From: Thermodesulfatator indicus DSM 15286 | GTDB taxonomy: Bacteria > Desulfobacterota > Thermodesulfobacteria > Thermodesulfobacteriales > Thermodesulfatatoraceae | Assembly: GCF_000217795.1 (NCBI RefSeq) | Contig: NC_015681.1 | Coordinates: forward strand, 921,244 to 985,243 | Length of the DNA: 64,000 nucleotides | Direction: 5' to 3' | Part shown: piece after piece, positions 45,326-64,000 of the stretch | Layout of the letters: the number at the start of each line of letters is the position of its first letter | How positions within the stretch are numbered: position 1 is the first letter of the stretch | Notes under the pieces: generated by a model | Seen by the model: only the letters and a program-made list of their open reading frames with translations | What the model was told of the DNA's origin: nothing | Databases searched by the model: none | Program-made: the position numbers and the translations under genes

Positions 45326-45367
45326 CTAAGCTTTATCGGAAAAACAAAAAAAATATTTAGTAAAAAA

Positions 45368-46211: not shown

Positions 46212-46212
46212 C

Positions 46213-47274: not shown

Positions 47275-47995
47275 AAGGACGATGTGTTTTGGGTTTTATC
47301 TTGAAAAACTTTTCTTTCCAAATTTCCTCAAGGTCAAAATTCAGGTCTTGAGCGTATTCTGCAAGAATTTTCTCAAGGGTGCTTTTATCTTCTTCGTCTA
47401 TCTCCTCGATTTTTAAAACCGAGCTAATCTGTGTCTCAGAAAGTTTTCCTCGCACATAAATTATGCCTCCATGCATACCTGTACCTAAAAACATGCCTGC
47501 GAGAGGCCGCTCAGGATAACGAGAATTCATACCAAGGAGGACTATAACTCCTCCAGCCATGTATTCTCCGAGGAAATCCCCTGCTTTACCCCCTATTACC
47601 AGCACGGGAATCTTGTCCATATAAGACTTCATGTGGATACCCACACGATATCCAACGTCAGAGGCCACAAAAATTTTCCCACCGCGCATTGCATAGCCAA
47701 GAACATCTCCGGCCATGCCCTCCACGATGATTTTGCCTTCATCCATGGTATTTCCTGTACCGTCCTGAGTGTTGCCATGAACCCTTATCCGAGGACCCCG
47801 CATAAATGCTCCCAAGTCATGCCCTGGCACACCGTAAACATCAATATCAATTTCAGCGGATACCCCAGCAGCTAAATAACGGTGACCGTTAACGTTTTTT
47901 ATGATGATATGGCTTGCCCCTTGCTCAATGGCCTTCCGAATATGTTGATTTAACTCACGGTAATGTAAATCTTTGGCATCGATTTCAAAAACCAT
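47252..47995 (-). CDS. Glutamate synthase GXGXG domain subunit (archaeal-type, split)
   Basis: 247 residues. The domain is a right-handed beta-helix with repeated Gly-rich turns (GVPGHDLGAFMRGPRIRVHG, GNTMDEGKIIVEG, GDVLGYAMRGGKIFV), which equals the C-terminal part of bacterial GltB. In the full enzyme this domain supports the ammonia channel. It is a separate gene here, 15 bases after the amidotransferase gene. Confidence 0.9.
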   Translation of the reverse strand: MVFEIDAKDLHYRELNQHIRKAIEQGASHIIIKNVNGHRYLAAGVSAEIDIDVYGVPGHDLGAFMRGPRIRVHGNTQDGTGNTMDEGKIIVEGMAGDVLGYAMRGGKIFVASDVGYRVGIHMKSYMDKIPVLVIGGKAGDFLGEYMAGGVIVLLGMNSRYPERPLAGMFLGTGMHGGIIYVRGKLSETQISSVLKIEEIDEEDKSTLEKILAEYAQDLNFDLEEIWKEKFFKIKPKTHRPYGKLYAY

Positions 47996-48010
47996 AACAA
48001 ACTCCTTACC

Positions 48011-49219
48011 TTAAGCCTCTTCCTCTTCTTCGGTTTCTTCTTCGTCACCTAAAGGAATACGACAAACCGGAGCTGAAATTTTAAAGGGCTCGCCGCGCAA
48101 ATAGCTCCGTTGATTGGGAATGGTATCTGGTTCCAGTTCTATAATTACCGGTTCACCAGCCTTAGGGCACCAAACTTCATCAGGATCAGGACAAATGGCC
48201 CTTATAGCCGCCTCTTCACTGGCCATATAATAAAAATCGCCTTTTTTAGCAGCCACTAAAGGCCTTAATTTCACCCGATCATTCAAGCCCACCAGACCGC
48301 CATTATAAGCAAAAAGAATGGCAAAAGGCCCATTGAGCATAGCCGGGCCGTAAACCGCCCGAATAGCCGTACAAACACTGCGATCTGGTTCTTCCATGCG
48401 GTCTATCTCTTCCCAGAAAGGAGGAGCTAAAGCCATACAGGCAAGCTCTATAGGTAAGCCGTGCCGCCTGATAAGGAGATCCAAAAGATAGGCTACCACT
48501 TCGGTATCAGTAAGGAGCGTGCAGTGGTAGCCAAACATTTCCAAGTAGCGACGGTTAGTCCCATAACTAGAAATTTCGCCGTTATGAACAATTGACCAGT
48601 CAAGAATGGTAAAGGGATGAGCTCCACCCCACCATCCTGGAGTGTTAGTAGGGAAACGGTTATGAGCCGTCCAGATGTAAGCAGAGTATTCATCAAGTCT
48701 AAAAAACTCTGCTATCTGGTCAGGAAAACCAACCCCTTTAAAGGCCCCCATATTGCGGCCAGAAGAGATGATATACGCCCCGCTTATATCGCGGTTTATT
48801 TTCATCACCAGACGAACCATATAGTCATCTTCATCAGGGGTGCCTTCACATATTTCACGAAGGTCCCCTTCATAACGAGGCTTGACAAAATATCGGTAAA
48901 ACCGAGGGGGCGAAGTAATTCCTGGCACGGGACGAGTAGGAATCTTTTCCTGATGGACCAGGTAACACTTGTGGGCTAAGACTTCCTCCACTTCTTTTAA
49001 GGCCTTTTTAGTGTCCGCCATTACGTGCAGGCAATAATGCTCGGCAAACTCAGGGTAAATACCGTAAGCCGCATACCCTGCTCCCAGGCCATTGCCCCGC
49101 TCCATCTGGCAACAAATGGACTCGATAATTACCTCGCCTTTAATTAGTTCACCTTTACGGTTAATAACTCCAGATAAACCACAGCCAGAAATTTCTTTGT
49201 TAGGAATGAATATCTCCAT
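48011..49219 (-). CDS. Glutamate synthase glutaminase (class II amidotransferase) subunit, split
   Basis: 402 residues. The class II amidotransferase motif is SGCGLSGVINRKG with Cys13, not Cys2. Downstream signatures WTAHNRFPTNTPGWWGGAHP and DWSIVHNGEISSYGTNRRYL are typical of GltB. Because the catalytic Cys must be N-terminal, residues 1-12 should be a removed propeptide. It supplies ammonia from glutamine to the FMN subunit encoded next upstream. Confidence 0.9.
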   Translation of the reverse strand: MEIFIPNKEISGCGLSGVINRKGELIKGEVIIESICCQMERGNGLGAGYAAYGIYPEFAEHYCLHVMADTKKALKEVEEVLAHKCYLVHQEKIPTRPVPGITSPPRFYRYFVKPRYEGDLREICEGTPDEDDYMVRLVMKINRDISGAYIISSGRNMGAFKGVGFPDQIAEFFRLDEYSAYIWTAHNRFPTNTPGWWGGAHPFTILDWSIVHNGEISSYGTNRRYLEMFGYHCTLLTDTEVVAYLLDLLIRRHGLPIELACMALAPPFWEEIDRMEEPDRSVCTAIRAVYGPAMLNGPFAILFAYNGGLVGLNDRVKLRPLVAAKKGDFYYMASEEAAIRAICPDPDEVWCPKAGEPVIIELEPDTIPNQRSYLRGEPFKISAPVCRIPLGDEEETEEEEEA

Positions 49220-49221
49220 AT

Positions 49222-50841
49222 TTATTCTCCCGCGTGTTTTACACCCAGGATTCTGAGTTCAACTTCATTAAGGCCTACGGCCCGCAGTTTGTCGCGGTTG
49301 CCTCGCAGGCTCTCTATTGAGTTTAAACCCATGGCCCCTAAAAGCTCTTGAATCTCGTGGGCCCAGCCGTGAACCAGATTATATATCTTTTCATAGGCCG
49401 TATCAGGATCAAGACGCTTAATTAATTCCGGTTTATTGGTAGCTATACCCCAAGGACATTTGCCGGTGAAGCAGCGGCCGCACATAGTACAACCTACGGC
49501 AATAAGAGCCGGAGTGCCAATGTAAACAGCATCCGCCCCGAGAGCTATAGCCTTTACCACATCGGCACTACAACGTATACCCCCAGAAACAATAAGCGAA
49601 GCCCAATGACGTATCCCTTCCTGGCGAAGCCTTTCATCTACAGCGGCAAGGGCCAATTCTATAGGAATGCCCACGTAGTCTCTAAACATAGTAGGAGCCG
49701 CACCAGTACCTCCACGCAAACCACAAAGCACTACGGCGTCAGCTCCGGCACGTACAATACCAGAAGCAATAGCTGGAGCATTATGCACCGCAGCGATCTT
49801 AACAAAAACCAGCTTTTTGTACTCAGTGGCCTCTTTCAAAGCGTAGATTAGGCCGCGCAGGTCTTCAATGGAGTAAATATCGTGGTGAGGAGCAGGTGAG
49901 ATGGCATCAGAGCCCACTGGAATCATACGAGTTTTAGAAATTTCTTCCGTAACTTTTTCGCCAGGAAGATGGCCACCGATCCCGGGTTTAGCCCCCTGGC
50001 CTATTTTAATTTCAATAGCTACACCTGCATTCAGATAATCTACATGTAAACCAAAGCGCCCAGAAGCACATTGGACTATGGTGTTTGAACCGTACTCATA
50101 AAGAGAAGCATGAAGCCCACCTTCACCGGTGTTATAAAGGGTGCCCAGGTCTTTAGCCGCCCGAGCAAGGCCCTGGTGAACATGGAGGCTTATGGCCCCA
50201 TAAGACATAGCCGCAAACATTATGGGCACTTCAAGTTTGATCCACGGACCGGGTTTTTGTTTAAGGTAGTATTTCCCGTCCTCAAGGACTACTTCTAATT
50301 TATCTGGCTTGGGGCCGATATAAGTGCGGAGCTCCATGGGCTCTCGCAAAGGATCTATGGGAGGATTGGTAACCTGACAGGCATCTAAAACGAGATGGTC
50401 CCAATAATTGCGAAAAGGTACGGCACAACCTGTTGCTGAAAGAAGAACACCGCCTGTATCCGCTTGCTTATAGACATTTTTGATAAACCACGGCTTCCAG
50501 GTGTCATGCTCGCGAAATTGCGTGGGGTGATGCCGAATAATAATGGCTCCCGTAGGGCAGGTGGCCTCACAGCGATGACAACCTACACACTTAGAGTGAT
50601 CTTCTGTAAGAGTTTCCCTCTTTTCATCCCACCCGTGGGCTTCATATGTGCACTCACGAATACAGAGCTTACACTTGGTGCACTTATCCCCGTCTCGGTC
50701 TATATAAAAATCTGGATAAAGCTTACTGAACTGGACCTTCTTTTTTTTAGATTTAGTTTTTGCTTCTTTTTGGGGGTTCACTGTATCCTCCCAATCATCG
50801 AGTGTGTTGGCAAACTTACAAAAGCTGTTTAAAAAATTCAA
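49222..50841 (-). CDS. Glutamate synthase FMN/Fe-S subunit (archaeal-type, split)
   Basis: 539 residues. Two ferredoxin-type clusters near 54-97 (CTKCKLCIREC and CVGCHRCEATCP) precede the FMN-binding TIM barrel of GltB (IKIGQGAKPGIGGHLPGEKV, GSDAISPAPHHDIYS, CGLRGGTGAAPTMF). A third cysteine set CTMCGRCFTGKC near 455 binds the 3Fe-4S-type cluster. It reduces 2-oxoglutarate plus ammonia to glutamate. The ferredoxin domain suggests ferredoxin or an unlinked beta subunit as donor. First gene of the operon FMN, glutaminase, GXGXG, purM, DUF523. Start uncertain by about 20 residues. Confidence 0.9.
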   Translation of the reverse strand: MNFLNSFCKFANTLDDWEDTVNPQKEAKTKSKKKKVQFSKLYPDFYIDRDGDKCTKCKLCIRECTYEAHGWDEKRETLTEDHSKCVGCHRCEATCPTGAIIIRHHPTQFREHDTWKPWFIKNVYKQADTGGVLLSATGCAVPFRNYWDHLVLDACQVTNPPIDPLREPMELRTYIGPKPDKLEVVLEDGKYYLKQKPGPWIKLEVPIMFAAMSYGAISLHVHQGLARAAKDLGTLYNTGEGGLHASLYEYGSNTIVQCASGRFGLHVDYLNAGVAIEIKIGQGAKPGIGGHLPGEKVTEEISKTRMIPVGSDAISPAPHHDIYSIEDLRGLIYALKEATEYKKLVFVKIAAVHNAPAIASGIVRAGADAVVLCGLRGGTGAAPTMFRDYVGIPIELALAAVDERLRQEGIRHWASLIVSGGIRCSADVVKAIALGADAVYIGTPALIAVGCTMCGRCFTGKCPWGIATNKPELIKRLDPDTAYEKIYNLVHGWAHEIQELLGAMGLNSIESLRGNRDKLRAVGLNEVELRILGVKHAGE

Positions 50842-50891
50842 GTTCTATCTAAATTTTTCTTATGCTATCATAAAATTGAGGTTAGCAAAGA

Positions 50892-51698
50892 ATGAATAAA
50901 ATTCTTTTAATCACCAAAAAAGGGGTCTCTATTCCCAAAAAACTTAAGGAAACCCTTTACAGGGTTTTTAAGGCCCACGGAATAGATATAGTAGAAGAAT
51001 TCAAACCAGAATACCAAAATCAAATATTAGCGGTGGTGGTATTGGGAGGAGACGGGACGCTTTTACGTGCAGCTCCCACTGCTTACATGCTTGATGTCCC
51101 TCTTTTAGGAGTAAACCTCGGAAGACTCGGTTTTCTCACAGAAATCACCGAAGACGAAGCAGGTAAAACTTTTGAATCTCTGGCCAAAGGCACTTACGAA
51201 ATAGAAGAACGCCTGATTCTAGAGGTTTACTCTGGCCCTAAAAAATATCTATCTTTAAACGAAGTGGCCATCATTAAAGGGCCTCTTGGGCTTATGATTC
51301 ATATTAAAGTTGATTGTGATGGAAAACTTTTAAGCGTTTATCATGGAGATGGCCTTATTATCTCCACCCCTACAGGCTCTACCGCCTACAATCTTTCAGC
51401 AGGAGGCCCTATAGTTCATCCCCAGAGTGACAATTTTATCCTCACTCCCATTTGCCCTTTTATGCTAAGTGCCAGGCCTATTGTTATTCCCGCAGATAAA
51501 AAATTATCTGCCAGTCTTCTTTATAAAGCCGAAGAGGTTCATGTAATAATTGATGGTTATATTAATTTTATTCTGTCGCATGAAGACAGGCTTCAAATAA
51601 AAAAAGCGCCGCGGACGCTTAAATTAGTGCGCTCCCCGACGCGGGATTACTTTGAAATTTTAAGAATTAAACTCGGTTGGGCCGAAGTTAAAGTTTAA
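50892..51698 (+). CDS. nadK: NAD kinase
   Basis: 268 residues. The GGDGT motif lies near 54 ([14 protein letters not shown]), followed by [12 protein letters not shown] and the second NAD site [26 protein letters not shown]. Makes NADP from NAD. Converges on the YtxH gene with a four-base overlap. Confidence 0.95.
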
Positions 51699-52126
51699 GC
51701 CGTTTCTTCTTTTTTTATCTTAGCTAAAAGGCGCTCTTTTTCTTTTTCCATAGCCTCTTTGCCCGCTTCTATGGCCTCACGCAAAGTAGCTGTCTTCTCT
51801 TCTAGAACCTCTTTGCTTTTAACTACCACTTCTTCGGCCTTTTCTTTTAATTCTTCTTTGATTTCCTCGGTCTTTTCTTCTAATGCGGACTTAACCTCTT
51901 CGGCTTTTTCTTCAAGTTCTTCTTTGGTTGTAATCAACTTCAAGCGGGCCTCTTCAGCGGCCATACGTGCCTTTTCACGAAGTTCTTCGGTAGTTTCTTT
52001 AAGCTCTTCTCTTATTTCTCGGCCTGGCTTAGGGGCTAAAAAAAGAGCAAGACCTGCTCCTACTATTCCTCCAATAAAAAAAGACGCCACTACCGTAGTA
52101 AAAGAAAAATTTTTTTCTTCCATCAT
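51695..52126 (-). CDS. YtxH-like membrane-anchored coiled-coil protein
   Basis: 143 residues. One N-terminal helix with a glycine zipper ([20 protein letters not shown]) followed by the GxxxR pattern typical of YtxH, then about 100 residues of Lys/Glu repeats ([18 protein letters not shown]) forming a long coiled coil. Family members act in envelope stress and resemble LEA-like proteins. It overlaps the DUF948 gene by four bases, a pairing common for these two families. Confidence 0.85.
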
Positions 52127-52797
52127 GATATTTCACCTCCTGCAGGTAATTTCTTTTTAAATGTTTTCAAAGCTACTTGTAAGCCTTTGGCCACAGCAGC
52201 TACCTCTATAGCTGCCTCTGCTACATTTTTAGATATGACTTCTGCCACCAAACGACTGGCCTTTCCGGTTTCTTCCACCGCTTTAAATAACTCTTCGGTT
52301 TTCTCTACCTTTAACTTTATATCTTCTACAATCTGGTTTAATTCTTTGATTAAAGCTTCTACTTCCTCCATAACTTTTGGAAGATCTTTTTCTACTCGCT
52401 CAGTGGATTTTTCAAAGAAGGTGCCAATTTTTCCAACGGCCTCTTTTATATTGCTAGCCGCTCCTCTTATTTCATAGGCTGTATCTTTTAGTATTTCTTG
52501 TAGCTCTGATAATAATTCTTTTATGGCTGGAGGCAAAATAGACATATCATCAGCCAAACGGTCTAGACGTTTGGCTAAATGATTCACGCTATCTAGAGTT
52601 TCCCGAGCATTTACTAATACAGGTTTTACTTCTAGCTCAAGATCCCTGAGGATATTAAGAGTGTCAGATAAGGTGCGGTCTACTTCGGTTAAAGTGTTTT
52701 TCAAACGAGAAACGAGGCTTAACAAAAAAACGACCAAAATAACAAAAAAAGCCGCGGCGATTATTCCTGCTAGATAAAGCCCTTGCTGCAAATCCAT
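52123..52797 (-). CDS. DUF948-type membrane-anchored coiled-coil protein
   Basis: 224 residues. An N-terminal helix (GIIAAAFFVILVVFLLSLVS) is followed by DUF948-like heptads (LKNTLTEVDRTLSDTLNILR, VLVNARETLDSVNHL). The rest is a coiled coil with KAVEETGKASRLVAEVI. Function unknown. Translationally coupled to the YtxH-like gene downstream. Confidence 0.8.
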   Translation of the reverse strand: MDLQQGLYLAGIIAAAFFVILVVFLLSLVSRLKNTLTEVDRTLSDTLNILRDLELEVKPVLVNARETLDSVNHLAKRLDRLADDMSILPPAIKELLSELQEILKDTAYEIRGAASNIKEAVGKIGTFFEKSTERVEKDLPKVMEEVEALIKELNQIVEDIKLKVEKTEELFKAVEETGKASRLVAEVISKNVAEAAIEVAAVAKGLQVALKTFKKKLPAGGEIS

Positions 52798-52923
52798 TTT
52801 TGCCTCCCCTTCATTGAAAAAATAAGTTGCTTCAGGGTGGTTTGTTTTAAGTTAAGCCCAACCTTAATATAAAGCAAGAAAAAGTTGACGATTTCAAAAA
52901 GCTATAGTAGCTAAGCAGCTGTC

Positions 52924-54210
52924 ATGAACGAGATAAAACCTTTTTACGGCTGGCGATATAATACAGAAAAGGTCTCTCTAGAAGATGTTTTGGCCCCTCC
53001 TTATGATGTGGTCTCTGCCGAAGAACAAGAAAATTATCTCAAAAAAAGTCCTTATAACATTTTTCATTTAGAACTAGGAGAAATATTTTCCTCTGATAAC
53101 CAGAATGAAAATCGCTATACCAGAGCAAAAGAATTTTGGAATCGCTGGCGCCAAGAAGGTATACTTGTTCGAGAAAAAAAACCATCTATTTATCTCTATA
53201 ACCTCCATTTTGAATGGGAAGGCAGACGGATAACCAGAAAAGGTTTTATTAGTCTGGTACGCCTGGCTCCTTGGGAGACAAAAAAAATTCTTCCTCATGA
53301 AAAAACCTTCGATAAAGTGACCGAAGATCGTCTTAAGCTTTTAAAAGCTACTCAGGCCCAATTCAGCCAGATATTTTGCCTTTATCACGACAAAAATCTT
53401 GTAAGTTTGAATGCTTTAGAAGAAAAGGCCAAGCTTCTCTATCAGGTAAAAGATCCGCAAGGCTTTACCCATGAACTTCTCCAGGTTACTGACAAAGAGG
53501 CCCTAGAATTAGTCCAGCAAACTATAGAGAAAGGGCCTTTATATATAGCTGATGGCCATCATCGTTACACCACGGCTCTGCGCTTTATGAAAGAAATGGA
53601 AGAAAAATACGGTGCTAATCCACCGCGATGTTTTCACTACATGATGATGTATCTTTGCCCCTTTGAAGAACCTGGTCTCTTGGTTCTACCTACTCATCGT
53701 CTTTTAACTCTTTCTTTGTCCCTAGAAGAAATCAAACAAAAGCTGGAAAGCTGGGGCAAAATTTCTGAGCTAACTCTCTCACCAAATAAACTAAACGCTT
53801 ATATTTCTGAGCTTAAACCTTATGAATTTGTAATTGTAAACAATGGAAATCTTTTTATTTTCAAATTAGAGAAAGAAAAAATCGATAAAGCCAAAGAGAT
53901 TTTTCCCCCATCGGTGGCAAAACTCCCAGTTGCTCTTTTTACTTGGGTGATAAAAGAAGCCTTAAAAATTGACGAAGCCGCGCTTAAAGTTCAAGGCAAA
54001 GCCCGGTTTATTCCGTGGGTGCCTGAAATTTTGGATAAAGCCAAGGGCAATATTTTTGGCTTTTTACTAGCTCCGACCCCTGTTTTAGCTTTAGAAGAAG
54101 TTTCTCAGGCAGGTACAGTAATGCCTCACAAATCTACTTACTTTCATCCTAAGATATTAACGGGCACAGTACTTTTTGAAATATCCCCTGAAAAAGGGCC
54201 TCCCTGTTAA
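52924..54210 (+). CDS. DUF1015 family protein
   Basis: 428 residues. The start IKPFYGWRYNTEKVSLEDVL and PPYDVVSAEEQ define DUF1015. The central IADGHHRYTTALRFMKEM and the later LPTHRLL block are the conserved, probably catalytic, parts. The family has a ParB/kinase-like fold; function in bacteria is unsettled. The next gene starts at the base following its stop. Confidence 0.9.
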   Translation: MNEIKPFYGWRYNTEKVSLEDVLAPPYDVVSAEEQENYLKKSPYNIFHLELGEIFSSDNQNENRYTRAKEFWNRWRQEGILVREKKPSIYLYNLHFEWEGRRITRKGFISLVRLAPWETKKILPHEKTFDKVTEDRLKLLKATQAQFSQIFCLYHDKNLVSLNALEEKAKLLYQVKDPQGFTHELLQVTDKEALELVQQTIEKGPLYIADGHHRYTTALRFMKEMEEKYGANPPRCFHYMMMYLCPFEEPGLLVLPTHRLLTLSLSLEEIKQKLESWGKISELTLSPNKLNAYISELKPYEFVIVNNGNLFIFKLEKEKIDKAKEIFPPSVAKLPVALFTWVIKEALKIDEAALKVQGKARFIPWVPEILDKAKGNIFGFLLAPTPVLALEEVSQAGTVMPHKSTYFHPKILTGTVLFEISPEKGPPC

Positions 54211-54696
54211 GTGAAAAGCTCTGACGTCCTAGCCAAACTACTGGCTAATGTGGCTCATAAGTGGCAAGAATACGGCTCTATTTTAAAAAATGATCCAGAA
54301 ATAAAGTCCCTTCTCGATAAACACCAAAAGGCTTTCGGGCATGTGCAAAAAGTTATGCAAGAAACCGGAGCAGCTCTTTTTTGTCGCGATTGCGGAATAT
54401 CCTCTATTTCCTGCTGTGGTGAAGGGATGGAACTTGAGTGTGAAGAAGCCCTTTTACTGGCTAATCTTTTGCTAGGAGTTAACATCCCTAATTCTCGCCG
54501 TTTTTCTACTGGCTGTTTTTTTCTTGATGAAAATGGCTGTGTTTTGAAAGTAAGGCCCCTTATTTGCCGCAACTTCATTTGCCCTGAGTTAAAAGAAAAC
54601 CTTGGCCTCCTGAAAACAAGAAAACTACAAGAAGCCCTAGATAATGAAGCCTTTTATCTTTTTCTTTTGTTAGAACGCATCAAAGAAATTATTTAA
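54211..54696 (+). CDS. Cysteine-rich YkgJ-like protein
   Basis: 161 residues, GTG start directly after the DUF1015 stop. Cysteines are clustered: CRDCGISSISCCGEG, then ECEEALLLANLL, CFFLDENGC, and CRNFICPEL. This order resembles YkgJ-type putative zinc or iron chelating proteins, but the match is partial. Gene coupling with DUF1015 suggests a shared task. Confidence 0.6.
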   Translation: MKSSDVLAKLLANVAHKWQEYGSILKNDPEIKSLLDKHQKAFGHVQKVMQETGAALFCRDCGISSISCCGEGMELECEEALLLANLLLGVNIPNSRRFSTGCFFLDENGCVLKVRPLICRNFICPELKENLGLLKTRKLQEALDNEAFYLFLLLERIKEII

Positions 54697-54814
54697 ATTT
54701 TCCCTCAACCACTCAACTTTTAACCATTAACCCGAGACCGAAAAATTTAAGGCCTAACGTTTTTGCATTCCTTTGCCGAAAAATATCTCTGAACTTAATC
54801 TGCGGGAGGTTTTT

Positions 54815-57148
54815 ATGAAAAAATTTTTTTCGGCCAAATTTTTAGTACCAGGGAGTGTATTTCTTGTCTTTTTGGTCTTTTTAATGGCCAGTCTGTCTAG
54901 TTTTTATCTTTTGGCCCAACAAAAACACGATGCTCATTATATAAATATTAGTGGTAAACTTCGTATGCTTTCTCAAAAAATAAGTAAAGAAAGTTTTTTG
55001 TATGCCCATACTAATGACCCCAAATGGTTAAATTCTTTGCAAAATACAGTAAAAACCTATGATGAAATAATAAACGAACTAGACGAGATATCTCGTAAAA
55101 CTCCAAGCTTTGTGAGAGAAGAATTTCAAAAGTTAGTTTCGTTATGGAAACCATTTAAAAGAAATGTTCTTTTGTTAAGCGAAGATAAAATTAAAAACCA
55201 ACAAATCCTTGAGTATGTTGCTAAAAACAACCAGGCTTTATTGGCTCAAGCTAATTCTCTCACTAAAAGCTTAGAAAAATTTTCTGAACAAAAGGCCGTT
55301 ACTTTCAAAAGAACTCTTATATTTTTACTAGGACTTGGACTAGCAATTTTTATTTTCACTTTAGCCATTACCAGAAAATTTTTGCTTGAACCTCTAAAAA
55401 AAATTTCTTGGGCCTTGCAAGAGCTTAAAAATGGAAATTTCGAAAAATCTATTCATCAACAGAAGACTTTAAAAGAATTAGAAGAAATTACATCGGCAAC
55501 TAATGCCGCAATTGCTTATATAGCCAGTCAGCTCTCTACTTTCAGTGATCAGAACCGCAGTTTGGCTACGGCAGCTGAATTTGTTGAACAATCAGGAGGA
55601 GCCATAAGGCAATTTGGTTATGACAGTGAGCGCATGGCCCAGGAGTTAAAAGAGGCTTCACGGCTAGCCACTGAAAATATTGCCACTATTGCCCACGCCA
55701 TGGAAGACCTTAACACCGCGGCGCGCGAAATCGCTCAAAGTATTCAAGAAACAGCAATGAAAGCCAGTGAGGCTAACGAACACGTAGCTTTTGCTAAAGA
55801 GACTATAAAAACCCTCGCCAAAAGTTCTCAAGAAATAGAAGAGGTAACGCGTTTAATTAATGATATTGCTGAACAAACCAACCTTCTGGCTTTAAATGCA
55901 ACTATTGAAGCCGCCAGGGCCGGAGAAGCAGGTAAAGGATTTGCCGTAGTAGCAGGCGAAATAAAAGAGCTTTCCAGACAAACGGCTAAAGCTACTAAAA
56001 AAATTGGGAAAATTATCAATACCATTCGCCAGGATATGGAAAAGGCCGTAGCTGGAGTAGAATCAATTTCAGAAACTGTAGCCAGTGTTAATGACCTGGC
56101 TAATACCATTGCCAGTGCTAGTGAGGAACAAACCGTAACTATAGCTGACCTAAACAATAACATTCAAGAAGCGGTAAGTACCGTAGAAAAAGTAAATCTC
56201 CAGGCCGATGAACTATTAGCTCACGCCGAAAGCTTTGAGGCTATAAGAGAAAATTTAGACACTATAGATACATGTATTTCAGGTATAGTGGAAGAAGGAA
56301 CAGTCCTGCTTTCTTTAGTAAAAACAAATCCCAATCTCGAAAAAGAATTATTTGAGACTCTTCCCTTAGAAACCAAACTAAAACTTTCTTTACTAACACA
56401 CCTCAGATTTCGTGAAAGAATTATTCAAGCTATCCTTGAAGGACAGATGCCAGAGATTGAAACAGAAGCCCACCTTTGCATATTAGGTAAGTTGCTCTCT
56501 GAATATCAACCAGAAACACAAGAAGAACGAGAACTTATAAGAAAACTTGAACCTATTCACGAAAAATTACATCAAGAAGCGAAAATCTTTCTAGAAAAAA
56601 TTAGAGATGCCCAAGACAAGAAAGATCTCATGAACTTTTATAGAAACAGTATAGAACCTCTTTTTGAAAAGATGATCTTCCTTATGGGAAAATGGTTGGC
56701 CATAAGACAGCTATCAGGAGAAAATTTAACTGCAGAAAAAGGCGAATTGATAAAATGGGGGCCTTCTTTTGAAATCGGAATTAAAATTATAGATGAACAA
56801 CATCATAAGCTCGTTGACATGATTAACGAACTTTACCGTAGCTTAAAAGAAGAAGTTAGCATAGCTAATTTAGAAAAAATTTTAGATGAGTTGATTGATT
56901 ATACCGCTAAACACTTTAAAACCGAAGAAGAATTCTTCGATAAATATGGTTATCCAGAAACGGAAATTCACAAACAAATCCATGCTAAATTAGTAGACAA
57001 AGTTATTGACTATAAGCACAAAATAAAATCAGGAGATGAAAAACTAGCCTACGATTTACTCACTTTTCTTAAGGACTGGCTAAGTAACCACATTTGCGTA
57101 ACAGATAAAAAATACGGGCCTTTTCTTAAAGAAAAAGGATTAAGATAG
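54815..57148 (+). CDS. Methyl-accepting chemotaxis protein with CZB and hemerythrin domains
   Basis: 777 residues. Start at 54815 is chosen because GGGAGG stands eight bases upstream; the frame opens 14 codons earlier. Order: TM1 (8-30), a PilJ-type sensor ([19 protein letters not shown]), TM2 (167-188), a HAMP-like linker, and a signalling domain with the hairpin [20 protein letters not shown] near 348. A chemoreceptor zinc-binding domain (525-610; [28 protein letters not shown]) follows. A C-terminal bacteriohemerythrin (647-777) has the diiron ligands in [28 protein letters not shown] and [10 protein letters not shown]. Likely senses oxygen or redox state and zinc or hypochlorite in the cytoplasm. 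Confidence 0.9.
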
Positions 57149-57150
57149 AC

Positions 57151-57185
57151 GTTAGGCCTTCGAGTTTTCAGGCTCGAGGGCCTAA
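57151..57185 (+). terminator. Stem-loop after the chemoreceptor gene
   Basis: TTAGGCC...TCGAG pairs with CTCGAGGGCCTAA across a short loop just after the stop. No T run follows, so it may only stabilise the transcript end. Confidence 0.5.
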
Positions 57186-57268
57186 TCCCTCCCATGAGAC
57201 AACCTCAAAATTTTGCCAAAATTGTAAAATTTTATGAAATCGAAATAAAAGTCGATAAAAATAAAAAC

Positions 57269-57296
57269 TTGACATAGCCGACAATATTACTAGTCT
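57269..57296 (+). promoter_or_regulatory. Possible promoter of the mltD-like gene
   Basis: TTGACA at 57269 followed after 16 bases by TAGTCT, about 30 bases before the start. The -35 is perfect, the -10 poor. Confidence 0.35.
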
Positions 57297-57327
57297 CTAT
57301 CTGTAAGATTTTCCCAAGGGAAAGGGC

Positions 57328-59007
57328 ATGAATAAAGTAAAGCTGGTCCTAATTTTATGGATTTTTTTTGTTTTTGTAGGTTGTAGTTCAACAAAAACCT
57401 CTCAGATTTCTCCAGATATTCCAAAGCCAAAATCTAATTTAGCCCAATCAACCTCTACAAATAGCCACAATACTCCTAAAATTGCTCAAAAATCTGACCT
57501 TTCAGGTTCTACCACAAACGAAAATGTAGATGCCAATACGGAAAAAAATAATTTATCTGAAAATTCCGAAAATAAAGAGCCGCAAGCAAGTGACTACGAT
57601 AAGGGTTCTCAAGAGGGAAATGACAAAATACAGCATCTAGTTGATTCCGCCTTAGAGTACTACAACCTTTCTCAAGATCTTTGGAATCAGGGTAAAGACG
57701 ATGAAGCCCTTCAAGCTTTAGATCAAGCTTATGAGTTAATTCTCCAGATAGATGACGATTCTGAACTAGCCCAATCAAAAGAAAATTTGCGTTTTATGAT
57801 TGCTAAACGCATTCTTGAAATATACGCCTCAAGATACACGGTAGTAAATGGTCTTCACTCAGAAATCCCTTTGGTAATGAATCGCTACGTTAAAGCAGAA
57901 ATCAAAAGGTTTCAAACTAGCGAACGCAAATTTTTTCTTGAGGCCTATAAGCGCTCAGGTCGTTACCGTCCTATGATAGTAAAAGCCTTAAAAGAAGCTG
58001 GGTTACCTGAAGAATTGTCCTGGCTCCCTTTAATTGAAAGTGGATTTAAAGTCAGAGCTTTATCTAGAGCAAGGGCCTTGGGCTTATGGCAATTTATCCC
58101 TTCTACCGGCTATAAATTTGGCTTAAAACGTAACATGTGGATTGATGAACGCCTTGATCCCGAAAAATCTACTAAGGCCGCTATAGCCTATCTTAAAGAG
58201 TTACACGAAATCTTTGGTGATTGGACAACGGTTTTAGCTGCTTACAACTGCGGAGAGGGTAAAGTTCTTAGAGTAATCAAACGCCAAAAGATTAATTATC
58301 TAGATAATTTCTGGGATCTTTATGAAAAATTGCCTCGCGAAACAGCTAGATACGTACCTCGTTTTTTGGCAGTATTACATATCCTGAAAGATCCAGCTAA
58401 ATACGGTTTTAATAAGTTGCCTGAACCAGATCCACCTTTAAAATATGAAACAGTAAAAGTAAACAAACAATATCGATTAAAAGATATAGCTAAGGCAATT
58501 GGTGTTTCAGCAAAACTCCTGGCTGATTACAATCCTGAATTGCGTTATAAGATAACCCCAGCCAATTACGTTTTAAAAGTCCCCAAAGGTAAAGGCCCTC
58601 AATTAGTAGCCCTTTTAGAAAAGGGAAGCATTAAACCCTGGGTGCCTAGGAAGACTTATTACGTATATTATCGTTTAAGACGAGGAGAAACTCTTTCTCA
58701 TTTGGCGAGACGTTATAAAACCAGCGTAGTAGCCATTATGAGAATTAACGGAATATCAAATCCTCGCCGTCTAAGAGCTGGTCAACGTTTAAAAATACCT
58801 GTAGGCAAAAAATATGTAGCCTATTCCTCAAAACGAAAGAAACAAAAAGTAATTACCTATATAGTGAAAAGAGGAGATAGCCTCTGGGTTATTGCCCGGA
58901 AGTTTAAGACTAGTACAAAAAGTATTATGAGAATAAACAATTTAAAAACTCACCGTCTTCAAGTTGGGCAGATTTTAAAAATACCTGTACGATATAGTTC
59001 TTCATAG
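57328..59007 (+). CDS. mltD: MltD-like lytic murein transglycosylase lipoprotein with LysM repeats
   Basis: 559 residues. Lipobox FVGC near 19; a Ser/Thr/Asn-rich linker to about 100. The SLT catalytic domain at about 205-330 has the catalytic Glu in SWLPLIESGFK, then ALGLWQFIPSTGYKFGL and VLAAYNCGEGKV. Three LysM modules follow (about 372-420, 448-492, 510-556; for example RRGETLSHLARRYKTS and KRGDSLWVIARKFKTS) for peptidoglycan binding. It cleaves glycan strands at the outer membrane. No anomaly. Confidence 0.93.
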   Translation: MNKVKLVLILWIFFVFVGCSSTKTSQISPDIPKPKSNLAQSTSTNSHNTPKIAQKSDLSGSTTNENVDANTEKNNLSENSENKEPQASDYDKGSQEGNDKIQHLVDSALEYYNLSQDLWNQGKDDEALQALDQAYELILQIDDDSELAQSKENLRFMIAKRILEIYASRYTVVNGLHSEIPLVMNRYVKAEIKRFQTSERKFFLEAYKRSGRYRPMIVKALKEAGLPEELSWLPLIESGFKVRALSRARALGLWQFIPSTGYKFGLKRNMWIDERLDPEKSTKAAIAYLKELHEIFGDWTTVLAAYNCGEGKVLRVIKRQKINYLDNFWDLYEKLPRETARYVPRFLAVLHILKDPAKYGFNKLPEPDPPLKYETVKVNKQYRLKDIAKAIGVSAKLLADYNPELRYKITPANYVLKVPKGKGPQLVALLEKGSIKPWVPRKTYYVYYRLRRGETLSHLARRYKTSVVAIMRINGISNPRRLRAGQRLKIPVGKKYVAYSSKRKKQKVITYIVKRGDSLWVIARKFKTSTKSIMRINNLKTHRLQVGQILKIPVRYSSS

Positions 59008-59051
59008 CTTTAATTGACATTGATGGAAGACGTGTTAACTTTTTAGTCGCT

Positions 59052-59128
59052 GGGCCGCTAGCTCAATTTGGTAGAGCAATGGACTCTTAATCCATAGGTT
59101 GGAGGTTCGAGTCCTCCGCGGCCCACCA
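59052..59128 (+). tRNA. tRNA-Lys (CTT)
   Basis: Acceptor GGGCCGC/GCGGCCC, D-arm GCTCAATTTGGTAGAGC, anticodon stem ATGGA/TCCAT with loop CTCTTAA giving CTT, T-arm GGAGG-TTCGAGT-CCTCC, encoded CCA. Confidence 0.93.
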
Positions 59129-59228
59129 GCTTTTCTCTAGCCCCCATAAGAAATCTATCCTACCTGGTGCATGGTCTTCATAGTGATAGTAAAAATAGAG
59201 CAATCCTTTGGTTAATGGGAGCAACCGC

Positions 59229-59870
59229 ATGAAAAAGATCGGCATTTTTTTATGTTTTCTCATCTTCTGGTTACCTCTAGGATGCAATGCCCACAAAGAA
59301 ACACATTATGTCCGTTGGGTTATTGATGGTGATACAATTGTTTTAGAAAATGGCCAAAAAGTCAGATACGCAGGGATAAACGCCCCAGAGATTGCACATG
59401 AAGACAAACCGGGAGAACCTTTTGGGCGGAAAGCCTTGAAATATAATATCAAGCTAGTTAAAGGCAAAAAGATTATCCTCGAACTGGCTGAAGAAAAACG
59501 CGACCGTTTTGGCAGAATTTTGGCCTATGTTTTTCTCCCTGATGGTACCTTCGTTCAAGAGGCCTTAGTCAAAAAAGGGCTAGCTTTTATCTGCTACATG
59601 CCTCCAAATACAAAGTACTTTGAGCGACTTCTTGAAGTACAACGCCAGGCAATGCGCCAAAAAATAGGCATCTGGGGCGTTGATTCTCTTTTCGAAGGAG
59701 AGCCTTATTACATTGGCAACAAACGCTCAAGGCGTTTTCATCGCCCAAGCTGTAGGCTTGGATTAAAGACCAGCCCTCGAAACAAAGTTATTTTTCGCTC
59801 TATGAAGGAGGCCTTTTTTGAAGGTTTTTGTCCATGTCGTAAGTGCCGTCCCTGGCCAGGGAAAAGATAA
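59229..59870 (+). CDS. Thermonuclease-family lipoprotein with Cys-rich tail
   Basis: 213 residues from the ATG at 59229; a longer frame from a TTG at 59208 adds seven residues ahead of the signal peptide and is rejected. Lipobox LPLGC; SNase fold with DGDTIVLENGQKVRYAGINA and KRDRFGRILAYVF, containing the two catalytic arginines. The last 50 residues (RRFHRPSCRL ... CPCRKCRPW) resemble the metal-binding motif seen at the end of some nuclease/Ada-like proteins. Likely a secreted, membrane-anchored nuclease. Confidence 0.85.
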   Translation: MKKIGIFLCFLIFWLPLGCNAHKETHYVRWVIDGDTIVLENGQKVRYAGINAPEIAHEDKPGEPFGRKALKYNIKLVKGKKIILELAEEKRDRFGRILAYVFLPDGTFVQEALVKKGLAFICYMPPNTKYFERLLEVQRQAMRQKIGIWGVDSLFEGEPYYIGNKRSRRFHRPSCRLGLKTSPRNKVIFRSMKEAFFEGFCPCRKCRPWPGKR

Positions 59871-59898
59871 AAGAGAACTTTGCTTGGTTCTTTTTATT
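59868..59898 (+). terminator. Possible terminator of the nuclease gene
   Basis: AAAGAGAAC pairs with GTTCTTTTT (one wobble) around an 8-nt loop, with more T residues after. Confidence 0.45.
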
Positions 59899-59914
59899 TT
59901 GGTAAATTTATTAA

Positions 59915-60036
59915 CAAAGACCTTTGTAAAAATGTGTTTAAAAGTTTTCTCATCGCCGTGAATGTCATTGCTAAGCGTAAGCGGCTTAGTGGCGATCTCA
60001 AACTAAAGTTCTAAATTATGCAAAGATCTTTAACAA
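59915..60036. repeat. MITE-like interspersed repeat, copy 7 (shortest)
   Basis: About 120 bp. Ends AAAGACCTTTGTAAAAATG and ATTATGCAAAGATCTTTAA. The interior keeps only the CATCGCCGTGAATGTCATTG and GTGGCGATC parts, so it is a minimal or deleted copy. Confidence 0.65.
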
Positions 60037-60047
60037 ACTAAATAAAA

Positions 60048-61151
60048 ATGGATGTGGGGATGGATAAAAAAGAGATAGAAGCTCGCCTAAAAGAATTACG
60101 CCAAGAGATAGATAGAGTTGATCGCACTATTCTTGATTGTCTTAAAAGGCGCTACTCGATTGTTAAAGAAGTAGGGCATCTAAAGAGAAAACTTGGCGTA
60201 GAGGTTCTTGATTTAAACCGAGAGCGTGCGGTAATAAAAAAAATTCTTGAAGAGAACCAAGGAATTTTCCCGGAAAACTCTTTAAAAGCTATTTTTTTAG
60301 AAATTGTTCACACTTGTCGCACAGCTCAGGAATTACAAAAAGTAGCCTATTTAGGGCCTGAAGCTACTTTTAGCCACATGGCGGCCCTTAAATTTTTTGG
60401 CCAGGCGGCTAATTTTCTCCCTCAAGAATCAGTACTCGATGTCTTTGAAGAAACAGAATCTGGAAGAACAAAGTTTGGTGTGGTACCAGTTGAAAACTCT
60501 ATAGAAGGCACAGTTTCAGCCACTTTAGATGCCTTTTCAGATTACAAACTAAAAGTTTGCGGAGAGGTTTTTATACCTGTAAGTCATGATCTTTTGAACC
60601 AAACTGGTCGTAAAGAAGATATTAAAAAGGTAATTTCTCATCCCCATGCTTTGGCCCAATGCCGCAAGTGGTTGAGAAAGAATTTGCCGTCAGTGCCGGT
60701 AGAAGAAGTTTCTTCCACGGCCTTTGCCGCCCGCTGGGCAGCCGTAGATCCCTCGGTAGCAGCTATTGCTAGTTCACTTGCCGCCCGTACTTATCATCTT
60801 CAAGCAGTGGCTACCAGCATAGAAGATTTTCACGGAAATGTTACCCGTTTTTGGGTTATCGGCAAAGAAAGCCCTGGACCTACAGGAAAAGATAAGACTT
60901 CTCTTTTCTTCAGTATCTCTGATCGCCCTGGAGCCTTATTTGAAGTTTTAAGCTCTTTTGCTAAACGGCAAATAAACCTTTCTAAGATTGAAAGCCGGCC
61001 AGCAAAGAACGAACCATGGCATTACTTCTTTTTTCTAGATTGTGACGGCCATATAAAAGACCAAAAGGTAAAAGAATGTGTTGAAGAAATTTCAAAAATC
61101 TGTGTGCGCATAGAATGGCTTGGTTCATACCCAGCTGGAGAGGAAAACTAA
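60048..61151 (+). CDS. pheA: Bifunctional chorismate mutase / prephenate dehydratase
   Basis: 367 residues. An AroQ-type mutase (5-90; LRQEIDRVDRTILDCLKRRY) leads to prephenate dehydratase (100-275; VAYLGPEATFSHMAALKFFG, VVPVENSIEGTVSATLDAF, ATSIEDFHGNVTRFWVIGK with the catalytic TRF). The ACT regulatory domain has DRPGALFEVLSSFAKRQINL and ESRPAK, the phenylalanine-binding site. It makes phenylpyruvate for phenylalanine synthesis and should be feedback-inhibited. Start at 60048 or 60060. It overlaps the next gene by 37 bases. Confidence 0.95.
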   Translation: MDVGMDKKEIEARLKELRQEIDRVDRTILDCLKRRYSIVKEVGHLKRKLGVEVLDLNRERAVIKKILEENQGIFPENSLKAIFLEIVHTCRTAQELQKVAYLGPEATFSHMAALKFFGQAANFLPQESVLDVFEETESGRTKFGVVPVENSIEGTVSATLDAFSDYKLKVCGEVFIPVSHDLLNQTGRKEDIKKVISHPHALAQCRKWLRKNLPSVPVEEVSSTAFAARWAAVDPSVAAIASSLAARTYHLQAVATSIEDFHGNVTRFWVIGKESPGPTGKDKTSLFFSISDRPGALFEVLSSFAKRQINLSKIESRPAKNEPWHYFFFLDCDGHIKDQKVKECVEEISKICVRIEWLGSYPAGEEN

Positions 61152-61648
61152 AAAACTCAAAAGAAAGGCTAGATAAATATCTTTTGGGAGAAGCGTCTTC
61201 GCTTGCTGAAGATTTAGTAGGAGATTATTTTAACCTTGCGGATAAAGATTGGCGCAAACTTCAGTATGAAGTTTTGTTAAATAGTAACTACTTTCTTTGT
61301 TTACCTCCAAAAGCCTTAGCGGGGCTCTTTCTTTTAGAAACTTCAGATTTTTTACCACGTCGCCGTAGGAATTTTTACAAACTAGTTTTGGCTGAAGACC
61401 AAATTCTATCTCTAGGGTTAGGAGCCTCTTCTCTTCGGGCCCTTTTGCTTTATATTTTTACTCATGAGCTAATACATATGATACGGTTTACAAAATTTGC
61501 TGCCAGTTTTTGGATGCCTGAAAAAGAACGTTTAGAGGAAGAAAAAAAAGTACATTTGCTTAGTAAAGAGGTCTTGAGTTTAATTAAAAACGAGGAAATA
61601 GAAAAAATACTTAAGCATTTTGATAAAACTTATCTAAAGGAGGTGTAA
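61115..61648 (+). CDS. Uncharacterised protein with HExxH motif
   Basis: 177 residues, no signal peptide. The motif IFTHELIHMIRFTKFA near 116-122 is a zinc-metalloprotease-type HExxH, and a run of acidic residues follows near 140. No family recognised. The frame overlaps pheA by 37 bases; later in-frame starts are possible but would need an alternative ribosome site. The next gene follows after three bases and its ribosome site lies in this gene's end, so the three are one unit. Confidence 0.65.
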   Translation: MAWFIPSWRGKLKNSKERLDKYLLGEASSLAEDLVGDYFNLADKDWRKLQYEVLLNSNYFLCLPPKALAGLFLLETSDFLPRRRRNFYKLVLAEDQILSLGLGASSLRALLLYIFTHELIHMIRFTKFAASFWMPEKERLEEEKKVHLLSKEVLSLIKNEEIEKILKHFDKTYLKEV

Positions 61649-61651
61649 AAA

Positions 61652-61891
61652 ATGCCTATTTATGAATACGAGTGCGAGAACTGCGGCCGTCATTACGAAG
61701 TGTGGCAAAAAATCACCGATGAACCCCTTACAACCTGCGAAGCCTGCCAGGGTAAACTCCGTAAACTCGTAAGCCAAAGCTCTTTTATATTAAAAGGCTC
61801 TGGCTGGTATGTAACTGACTATGCTCGCAAAGAGAAAAAAGAAAGTAAAAGCTCAAAAGGGAGCCAAAAGTCTGAAAGTTCTTCCAAATAA
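61652..61891 (+). CDS. FmdB-family zinc-ribbon protein
   Basis: 79 residues. N-terminal [20 protein letters not shown] and [21 protein letters not shown] are the FmdB ribbon with two CxxC pairs; the tail is Lys/Ser-rich and disordered. Regulatory role inferred by name only; family members are often small and of unclear function. AAAGGAGG stands about eight bases before the ATG. Last gene before a strong terminator. Confidence 0.88.
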
Positions 61892-61900
61892 TATCCCTTC

Positions 61901-61940
61901 AATTAAAGAAAGCGGCCCTAAAAGGCCGCTTTCTTTAATT
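61901..61940. terminator. Strong bidirectional terminator after the FmdB-like gene
   Basis: AATTAAAGAAAGCGGCC, CTAAAA, GGCCGCTTTCTTTAATT: a 17-bp perfect stem with built-in A and T runs. Confidence 0.9.
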
Positions 61941-61971
61941 AATAAGTTCATTAAAGAGGCGACAAGAGACA

Positions 61972-62308
61972 AGATACACACTCATTGCGAGCGGAGCGAA
62001 GCAATCCCTGTCGCGAGGCGACGCAGTCGCCGTGGCGATCTCTAAGACTCCTGTGCCCACGTTAGGGACCGAGATTACTTCGTCGGCACTTCGTGCCTCC
62101 TCGTAATGACCCGGCTGGGCCACTTCGTCGGTCCTAGCGGACCTCCTCGTAAGTGTAAGTGAGAAGTGAAAAGAGAGAATTATTTACCATCGGCCATCTG
62201 CCATCAGCCATCGGCCATCCCGTCACTGCGAGCCCGTATGGGCGAAGCAGTCTCTTAAATAAAACGAAGCAGTCTCTTAAATAAAATATTTTGCAAAGGT
62301 CTCTTAAA
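61972..62308. repeat. MITE-like interspersed repeat, copy 8 (composite, reverse)
   Basis: Fills most of the 426-base gap between convergent fmdB and trkA. Has GCGAAGCAATCCCTGTCGCGAGGCGACGCAGTCGCCGTGGCGATC, read in two parts, then GGCCATC/GCCATCAGCCATC motifs near 62190, a GTCACTGCGAGCCCGTATGGGCGAAGCAGTCTC block, and the end TTTTGCAAAGGTCTCTTAA. A 22-bp unit is tandemly duplicated at 62243-62286. A matching left end is not clear. Confidence 0.65.
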
Positions 62309-62317
62309 CATATACTA

Positions 62318-62977
62318 CTAGTCAGTATCAGGTAAAAGTTTCTCTAAATATTCTTTTTTACCTAGAACAAAAAGTTCTTCGTCTTTTTCGATAACATGTT
62401 CAGCAGGCGGAAGAATTATAATTTTAGAGGTATGTTTTTTCCGTATAGCCAAAATATAAACGTGGTAGCGACGGCGCAAATCAAGTTCCTTAAGGCTATG
62501 ACCAACAAATTCGTCTGGCGGATCAATTCTCGCTATAAGAAATTCTGGCAATAAGGGTAGAAAATCTACCATGTTGGGTGTAATTAAGGCTTGAGCTTCT
62601 TTAAGAGCAGCGTCCTGTTCAGGAATTACGACACGGTCTGCCCCAAGGAGTCTCAAGATACGAGCATGGTCTTCATCATTGGCCTTGGCGAGGATAAATT
62701 TGGCTTTAAGCTCCCGTAAGTAAAGCACAATTAAAACACTGGCCGACAGATTACTCATGGCTACTACTACATAATCTGCTTCCTCGACACCAATACTTTT
62801 TAGAACTTCCTTGCGTGTAGCATCAGCTACAATGGCCTCAGAAATATCTTGACTTATGTCTTCTACCAACTTTTCATTTCTATCTATTCCTAACACCTCT
62901 ACCTTTTCCATGGCTAATGTCTTAGCCAGATTAGAACCAAATTTCCCAAGACCTATGACTATAACTTTTTTGTTCAT
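62318..62977 (-). CDS. trkA: TrkA-type potassium uptake regulator (RCK domain)
   Basis: 219 residues. An RCK_N domain with the nucleotide-binding motif VIGLGKFGSNLAKTLAMEKV and acidic IDRNEKLVEDI end, then an RCK_C domain from about 135 (PPDEFVGHSLKELDLRRRYH). Single RCK pair, as in KtrA. It gates the membrane subunit encoded two bases upstream according to bound ATP/ADP or NAD. Cytoplasmic. Confidence 0.92.
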   Translation of the reverse strand: MNKKVIVIGLGKFGSNLAKTLAMEKVEVLGIDRNEKLVEDISQDISEAIVADATRKEVLKSIGVEEADYVVVAMSNLSASVLIVLYLRELKAKFILAKANDEDHARILRLLGADRVVIPEQDAALKEAQALITPNMVDFLPLLPEFLIARIDPPDEFVGHSLKELDLRRRYHVYILAIRKKHTSKIIILPPAEHVIEKDEELFVLGKKEYLEKLLPDTD

Positions 62978-62979
62978 AT

Positions 62980-64000
62980 CTAACCCACCATAACTCTTTC
63001 TTTGGGATAGCGGTACGGTCGAGGTTCATGGCCCACTTCCGAAAGAAAAGAAATCAACGAAAGAAGCCCAACCCTTCCTACAAACATGGTAAGAATAATA
63101 CAAATTTTCCCCCATAAATTTAAGTTAGAAGTAACGCCTGTACTTAAGCCTACTGTTCCTAGGGCAGAAACCACTTCAAATAAAGCTCCTAAAAATTCGT
63201 GCTGGGACTTATAAAAAGGTATGTTGGGCTCCGTAAAAGTAAGAAAAAAATGAAAAAGCATAATGGCCAGCAGGTAGATAAAAACCAGGGTTACGGCTTT
63301 ACCTACTTGATCTACAGGTATTGACCTTTTAAAGGCCACGGCTTGAGGGAACCCCCTTAATCTGCTCCATACCGTACAACTCAAAACAGCAAACGTAGTA
63401 GTCTTTATTCCACCACCTGTTGAGCCTGGACAGGCCCCTATAACCATCAGAATCAAAAATACATAAATGCTGTGTTCTGAAAAATGAGCAATATCTATAG
63501 AATTAAAACCTGCCGTACGGGCACTAACACTATGAAAAACAGCTGTAACAACTTTAAGAGGCCAGGACAACCCAGCCATAGCACCAGCGGAATCGAACCA
63601 TAAAAACGCCACGGTTCCAAAAATTATTAAAGCCACATGGGTATAAACAGTTAACTTAAAATGCAATGATAATTTATGGCGTTTTTCTTTAAAAAAGCTT
63701 AGTAGTTCGTAAACAATAGGAAAGCCTGTATTCCCTAAAAGAATTGCCAAAGCTATTAAGGCGAGAACGGCATAACTTTTCTGAAAATCAATCATGCCAT
63801 CATTGAAAGTAGAAAACCCTGCATTACAAAAGGCGGAAACCGCATGAAATATGGCCTGAGCCAAGGACACTTTGATCCCTAAACCGTGTCCTAAAAAGCA
63901 CAAAAAAAGCCCCAAAGCTATTAAAGCTTCAGATATGAAAGTATAAGCAAAAATGGTAAAAAGTAACTTTCTGGGTTCAGGCGTAAAGTGGGGCAAAAAG
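62980..64000 (-). CDS. TrkH/KtrB potassium transporter, C-terminal part (5' end outside window)
   Basis: About 340 residues visible. Membrane helices and the selectivity-filter-type loops SAFCNAGFSTFNDGM, SARTAGFNSIDIA and ACPGSTGGGIKTTTFAV are TrkH/KtrB signatures, and a fourth loop SALGTVGLSTGVTS follows. The family is about 440 residues, so the first 100 residues (first filter loop) lie beyond 64000. The Met near 63996 is internal. With TrkA it imports K+. Confidence 0.92.
   Translation of the reverse strand, partial: FLPHFTPEPRKLLFTIFAYTFISEALIALGLFLCFLGHGLGIKVSLAQAIFHAVSAFCNAGFSTFNDGMIDFQKSYAVLALIALAILLGNTGFPIVYELLSFFKEKRHKLSLHFKLTVYTHVALIIFGTVAFLWFDSAGAMAGLSWPLKVVTAVFHSVSARTAGFNSIDIAHFSEHSIYVFLILMVIGACPGSTGGGIKTTTFAVLSCTVWSRLRGFPQAVAFKRSIPVDQVGKAVTLVFIYLLAIMLFHFFLTFTEPNIPFYKSQHEFLGALFEVVSALGTVGLSTGVTSNLNLWGKICIILTMFVGRVGLLSLISFLSEVGHEPRPYRYPKERVMVG

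Follow-up and report, generated by a model that had tools for sequence, protein, structure and literature searches.

What does a chemoreceptor respond to when it carries one sensor in the periplasm and two more behind its signaling domain? This question is raised by a 777-residue protein of the thermophilic anaerobe Thermodesulfatator indicus DSM 15286, which is encoded within the 64,000-nucleotide stretch of DNA analyzed here (the window) and joins a PilJ-type domain, an MCP signaling domain, a CZB domain, and a C-terminal hemerythrin (Hr). The reading that we prefer—and to which we give an even chance, judging from the sequence and from analogy with studied receptors—is that of a membrane chemoreceptor whose serial cytoplasmic CZB and Hr domains would report zinc/redox state and O2 to one CheA pathway, probably for oxidant avoidance.

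Domain architecture

The features of the gene are as follows, in coordinates of the window.

54815–57148, plus strand: whole receptor gene, 777 residues and a stop codon (open reading frame with ATG start and GGGAGG upstream)
54842–54916, plus strand: first transmembrane helix, about residues 10–34 (hydrophobic by reading; a script detects the counterpart in orthologues)
54905–55225, plus strand: PilJ-type periplasmic sensor, residues 31–137 (Pfam 73.8 bits, cut-off 26.6; a profile from eight members of the family hits PilJ structures and also 6gcv)
54941–54976, plus strand: N-box-like stretch, residues 43–54, with GxxR as G47 and R50 (compared with published motifs)
55304–55372, plus strand: second transmembrane helix, about residues 164–186 (hydrophobic by reading; counterpart in orthologues detected by script)
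55373–55492, plus strand: possible HAMP linker, residues 187–226 (15.7 bits, under the cut-off of 25, so that a HAMP domain is not claimed)
55742–56197, plus strand: MCP signaling domain, residues 310–461 (Pfam MCPsignal 116 bits, cut-off 34.6)
56372–56704, plus strand: CZB domain, about residues 520–630, with zinc ligands H529, C555, H582, and H586 (Pfam at 529–590; invariant ligands; alignment with DgcZ)
56705–56755, plus strand: CZB–Hr linker, about residues 631–647 (low model confidence; variable length in the family)
56756–57145, plus strand: Hr domain, residues 648–777, with seven diiron ligands (Pfam and NCBIfam; structural match to DcrH; conserved ligands)

The order PilJ, MCPsignal, CZB, and Hr, with the last two following the signaling domain, had been read from the sequence in a first-pass annotation, and both the assignments and their order hold, each domain scoring above its own curated Pfam cut-off. 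For Hr, the Pfam match at residues 655–771 (64.3 bits, cut-off 25.3) is accompanied by an NCBIfam match of the C-terminus to bacteriohemerythrin (E 1.4e-43). The CZB assignment—on which the annotation had staked its reading—is accepted by the profile search with a small margin (residues 529–590, 31.9 bits against a cut-off of 29.4, E 1.8e-7); in the genome-wide search, it scores 37.9 bits and is the sole CZB match of the genome.

Two hydrophobic helices flank the PilJ domain. Hence, the receptor does not belong to the soluble TlpD-like class, which lacks transmembrane helices, and counts among the membrane-bound receptors with a C-terminal CZB. It also has the C-terminal Hr after the MCP signaling domain that marks Hr-MCPs of the DcrH type, but with CZB in between.

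Counting from the MCP tip, 422 residues follow in this receptor versus 149–150 in the seven other MCPs of the genome whose tip a script detected (another MCP, L010, escaped it). The point 149–150 residues past the tip, where these other receptors end, falls just before CZB. The domain thus begins at the terminal point of the other receptors' MCP helices and appears continuous with the signaling coiled coil, which Hr does not.

Metal sites

Both metal sites predicted in the first-pass annotation are intact at the level of their ligands. The 3His/1Cys set of CZB (H529, C555, H582, and H586) aligns with four residues of Escherichia coli DgcZ. Of these, H22 and C52 are named as zinc ligands in the available literature; the other two are H79 and H83. 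Hr bears the seven diiron ligands—five His, one Glu, and one Asp—as H663, H700, E704, H719, H723, H759, and D764. All ligands of both domains are invariant in an alignment with nine relatives. Among the 19 tandem CZB–Hr proteins of the family, none lacks any of the four CZB ligands, though CZB identity drops to 21%, which makes their conservation more than chance; the Hr ligands are likewise kept in 19/19, where the last three are counted over 18/18 since one row ends at a contig end.

The survey of Perkins et al. 2021 (PMC8262984) uses CX(L/F)GXW(Y/L) as CZB motif, with position 6 also listed as "bulky hydrophobic" in its available text. Here, the stretch reads CILGKLL and therefore departs from the motif: W is replaced by L in this receptor and by F in the 18 others, and one family member has S instead of the motif G. 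Under Pfam, CZB exceeds the cut-off in six of the nine relatives and falls below it in L046, L047, and L048.

In a rival reading, Hr is the only cytoplasmic sensor—making the protein an O2 receptor of the DcrH type—and the zinc of CZB is structural, the domain merely placing Hr under the coiled coil. Mean identity across the family is 60% for Hr, 42% for CZB, and 25% for the N-terminal part, so that Hr is better conserved than CZB; the lost motif W and the S for motif G point in the same direction, and conserved zinc ligands would be expected of a structural site as well. However, the ligand set that persists in all 19 proteins includes the Cys that is redox-active in studied CZBs, and two close relatives, L084 and L157, retain CZB without Hr. 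We consider this reading unlikely.

Structure and junction

An AlphaFold2 model of residues 456–777, calculated from seven aligned sequences, has a mean pLDDT of 69.6. In ten-residue blocks, pLDDT ranges from 73 to 94 within CZB—with 62 in its last block—and from 62 to 83 within Hr, and drops below 50 at the junction (residues 633–643 and 648–657). The Hr model superimposes on DcrH with Z 18 and an rmsd of 1.6 over 129 residues; by sequence too, the DcrH Hr domain is the closest solved entry to the receptor's C-terminal Hr (E 2.3e-25). The CZB model matches the CZB domain of DgcZ (3t9o_B) with Z 10.5 and an rmsd of 3.1 over 115 residues, a match which unrelated four-helix bundles equal in score. 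The CZB sequence alone gave no credible match in the PDB, and the viral fold library returned nothing at E 0.001 or better. Given the departure from the motif and a fold match that is shared with other bundles, the filing under CZB rests on the profile and on the ligands, that is, on sequence.

The linker between the conserved columns that flank the CZB–Hr junction varies from 20 to 66 residues across the family. Such variation speaks for a flexible tether and against a rigid helix running from CZB to Hr; together with the model, it argues for an Hr domain that would hang loosely beside CZB.

A loosely tethered Hr, and a signaling coiled coil that runs into CZB and not into Hr, would also suit a domain that does not signal at all: Hr might buffer O2/peroxide or iron locally and so shield the CZB zinc-thiolate from oxidation, leaving CZB as the only signaling domain. 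Yet Hr domains of the DcrH type in MCPs are generally regarded as O2 sensors in the literature available to us, and Hr beside an MCP without any CZB is common in the phylum (e.g., 13 loci). A buffering Hr is thus improbable in our view.

Distribution and origin of the tandem

A profile of the CZB–Hr stretch, 307 positions long, was used to find the same order in other genomes. Near full-length matches occur in 10 of the 395 sampled genomes of the phylum, at E 9.4e-127 or better; after these, the phylum's matches resume at 8.2e-58, and from there on those listed cover the Hr end only, except for the CZB-only L157, an Hr-less paralogue. Within the order, the tandem is found in 15 of 41 genomes, in one of which it ends at a contig end; the other 26 genomes are without it. 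Its carriers in order and phylum samples come from six families (f1, f2, f3, f31, f57, and f101). The first-pass annotation had called the serial arrangement of CZB and Hr unusual. By frequency in the phylum this stands, but CZB and Hr are a conserved pair in a small family and not a one-off. CZB as such has Pfam matches in at least 124 of the 395 phylum genomes—a count among whose matches the tandem carrier G328 is absent.

The narrow pattern P[PF]EVETDP, run over contigs, returned 48 stretches from six loci, titled Thermodesulfobacteria(ceae/les), Thermodesulfatator atlanticus, or Deltaproteobacteria. A setting at vents, as had been suggested from the sequence, is consistent with the contig of a genus-mate that bears the title T. 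atlanticus. Among these six loci is L084, which is Hr-less and labeled Myxococcota by the tree program. Plasmid records yielded Hr-only matches, and 0 of 30 cover 80% of the CZB–Hr query.

For a phylogenetic tree, MCP tip and CZB of 39 proteins were used with Hr excluded: 19 tandem and 20 CZB-only proteins. The rows are the CZB matches that were retrieved and make no full sample, and six of the CZB-only rows stand far outside, several of them on long branches. In this tree, the 19 tandems and the two Hr-less proteins L084 and L157 form one clade with a support of 100/99. One gain of Hr followed by two losses—three label changes in total—would fit this topology. L157 shares its genome with the tandem sister L049 and stops shortly past CZB. 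A read-through of the TGA after its CZB was considered and dropped, as no hemerythrin lies downstream in that frame.

The neighborhood offers no operon clue. When seven related loci were compared with positions 44000–64000 of the window, only the receptor or frames overlapping it matched (E 1e-10, best match per frame). Elsewhere in this region, two adjoining open reading frames at 48011–50841 resemble, by eye, a split glutamate synthase with amidotransferase-like and ferredoxin/FMN-like parts.

The N-terminal part and the nitrate question

The N-termini of the family are variable. PilJ is present in 8 of the 19 tandem proteins, namely the six of the receptor's own genus plus L046 and L049; it was assigned by Pfam in the receptor itself, L041, L042, L046, and L049 and by alignment in L121, L122, and L128. 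Two members (L047 and L048) have a periplasmic stretch that does not match PilJ, and nine have only short hydrophobic helices—in L129, which is without a periplasmic sensor, one helix was scored by script and the second by eye. CZB and Hr are hence the constant inputs of the family, and the N-terminal part is replaced or absent in 11/19.

The profile of the eight PilJ-type members matches 6gcv with E 4.1e-9, which we take to be the structure of McpN. Could the receptor be mainly a periplasmic nitrate/oxyanion sensor of the McpN type, whose C-terminal domains only modulate or localize? For McpN, the nitrate N-box is given as [IVL]-[ND]-x-A-G-x-Q-R-M-L-[ST]-Q and the nitrate-contact motif as GxxR (PMC6381276). 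The receptor bears GxxR (G47 and R50), which is kept in seven of the eight PilJ-type members and missing from L049, and it has RMLSQ; the strict N-box fails at two of its ten specified positions (8/10), with A replaced by S and Q by L. It is, however, present in three CZB-only relatives (L158, L159, and L162), and the genome encodes a NapA-like protein that scores below the curated cut-off. PMC5276818 describes, in its available text, a NapA-like protein in T. indicus, with nitrate reduction not reported for those organisms. Against a nitrate receptor stand the absence of PilJ from 11 of the 19 members, the failing N-box, and the genomic distribution: a link of PilJ with nitrate reduction genes was found unsupported, since NapA-like genes occur in 3/6 PilJ-type versus 7/9 hairpin-type genomes of the order. 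We regard a predominantly nitrate-sensing function as very improbable.

As an observation apart, L158, L159, and L162 have the order PilJ-MCP-CZB without Hr and are candidate receptors for nitrate and zinc together.

Chemotaxis pathway and genome context

Nine MCP matches were found in the genome, along with a single CheA bearing two CheW domains and one CheW-only open reading frame. The receptor presumably works through this single CheA/CheW pathway. The cluster reads cheY-cheB-cheR-cheA-DnaJ-like-cheW (names by eye); its DnaJ-like gene between cheA and cheW (L146:8132-9061) shows by eye a J-domain start and CxxCxGxG repeats. There are two flagellin matches and one cytochrome bd subunit. One flagellin match (G000:C1:478983-479393, L169) lies in an open frame of 858 residues, unusually long for a flagellin. 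A stand-alone hemerythrin of 129 residues is found amid housekeeping genes (L147:3089-3478).

Comparison with known systems

DcrH of Desulfovibrio vulgaris is similar as a membrane MCP with C-terminal Hr from an anaerobic sulfate reducer; its domain order, as published in the available text, is without CZB, whereas here CZB sits between MCP and Hr. With the CZB receptors TlpD, McpA, and the membrane-bound C-terminal CZB proteins of "cluster II" (Perkins et al. 2021, PMC8262984), the receptor shares a CZB directly after the MCP coiled coil and the 3His/1Cys set; it differs from these, as far as they are described there, in the Hr that follows CZB and in the L at the motif W, and from TlpD in that the latter is soluble. 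McpN of Pseudomonas aeruginosa offers the PilJ-type periplasmic bundle with the nitrate-contact GxxR, but the receptor departs from the strict N-box, and for McpN the available text mentions neither CZB nor Hr (PMC6381276).

In its main text, the CZB survey of 10,140 sequences (PMC8262984) nowhere uses the words hemerythrin or PilJ, and the hemerythrin survey PMC4919030 does not contain the word zinc. The literature searched on hemerythrin, CZB, and aerotaxis, as far as available, held no description of an MCP-CZB-Hr combination. The receptor is built of known parts.

Proposed signaling mechanism

The first-pass annotation had suggested that the receptor integrates oxygen, zinc, or oxidant signals. 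We infer the same in more specific terms, with studied receptors as precedents. Zinc-site changes of TlpD are described to travel to the kinase tip; for McpA of Salmonella, which mediates attraction to O2, zinc is proposed as messenger; and the Hr domain of DcrH is reported to bind O2 and to change the order of its N-terminal loop with redox state, with negative aerotaxis being proposed.

On our preferred reading, in which both cytoplasmic domains sense, CZB would directly prolong the MCP coiled coil and act as in TlpD and McpA: its zinc occupancy, set by the labile zinc pool or by oxidation of C555, would shift the coiled coil and CheA activity. The tethered Hr would, like that of DcrH, bind O2 and become oxidized by it; the change in its N-terminal loop—which adjoins CZB—might bias the same signal. 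For the members with PilJ, another input may come from an oxyanion in the periplasm (nitrate, nitrite, or sulfite). The behavior would be a steering along gradients of O2 or oxidants, and for an anaerobe such as this one, avoidance is most likely. This sign is the least certain step because the McpA precedent has the opposite one.

In favor of two sensors are the retention of both ligand sets, the single clade, the flexible junction, the DcrH-like Hr fold, one CheA/CheW set, the flagellins, and cytochrome bd; against them, L084 and L157 do without Hr, and 26/41 genomes of the order do without the tandem.

How Hr passes its signal on to the MCP when the receptor is complete is described as unsolved in the DcrH literature available, and the CZB literature treats zinc as a proxy for redox and O2. 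One protein here joins both questions, that of Hr-to-MCP communication and that of the actual stimulus of CZB domains. Variants that naturally lack Hr (L157 and L084) or a periplasmic sensor (9/19) allow for separating the inputs without design. The receptor is also a test case for the possible joint use of a direct and an indirect oxygen signal by an anaerobe where oxic and anoxic zones meet.

The two domains might also form one composite sensor: O2/peroxide chemistry at the tethered diiron site would act on the zinc-thiolate of C555, and O2 would be read as zinc release into the coiled coil. We think this unlikely. Under such a reading, the pairing of CZB and Hr would be functional and recurrent, given a second set of proteins in the phylum. 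In these (L130–L137 and L139; nine loci from eight phylum genomes, among 12 selected stretches), two transmembrane helices enclose a periplasmic CZB, and the same MCP ends in Hr. In L133 and L137 of this arrangement, the first CZB His is replaced.

CZB domains also occur in rows ahead of the MCP domain in this phylum. Three in a row are found in L054, L055, L059, and L066, and two in L057 (the second weak), L063, L064, L067, L070, L071, and L072.
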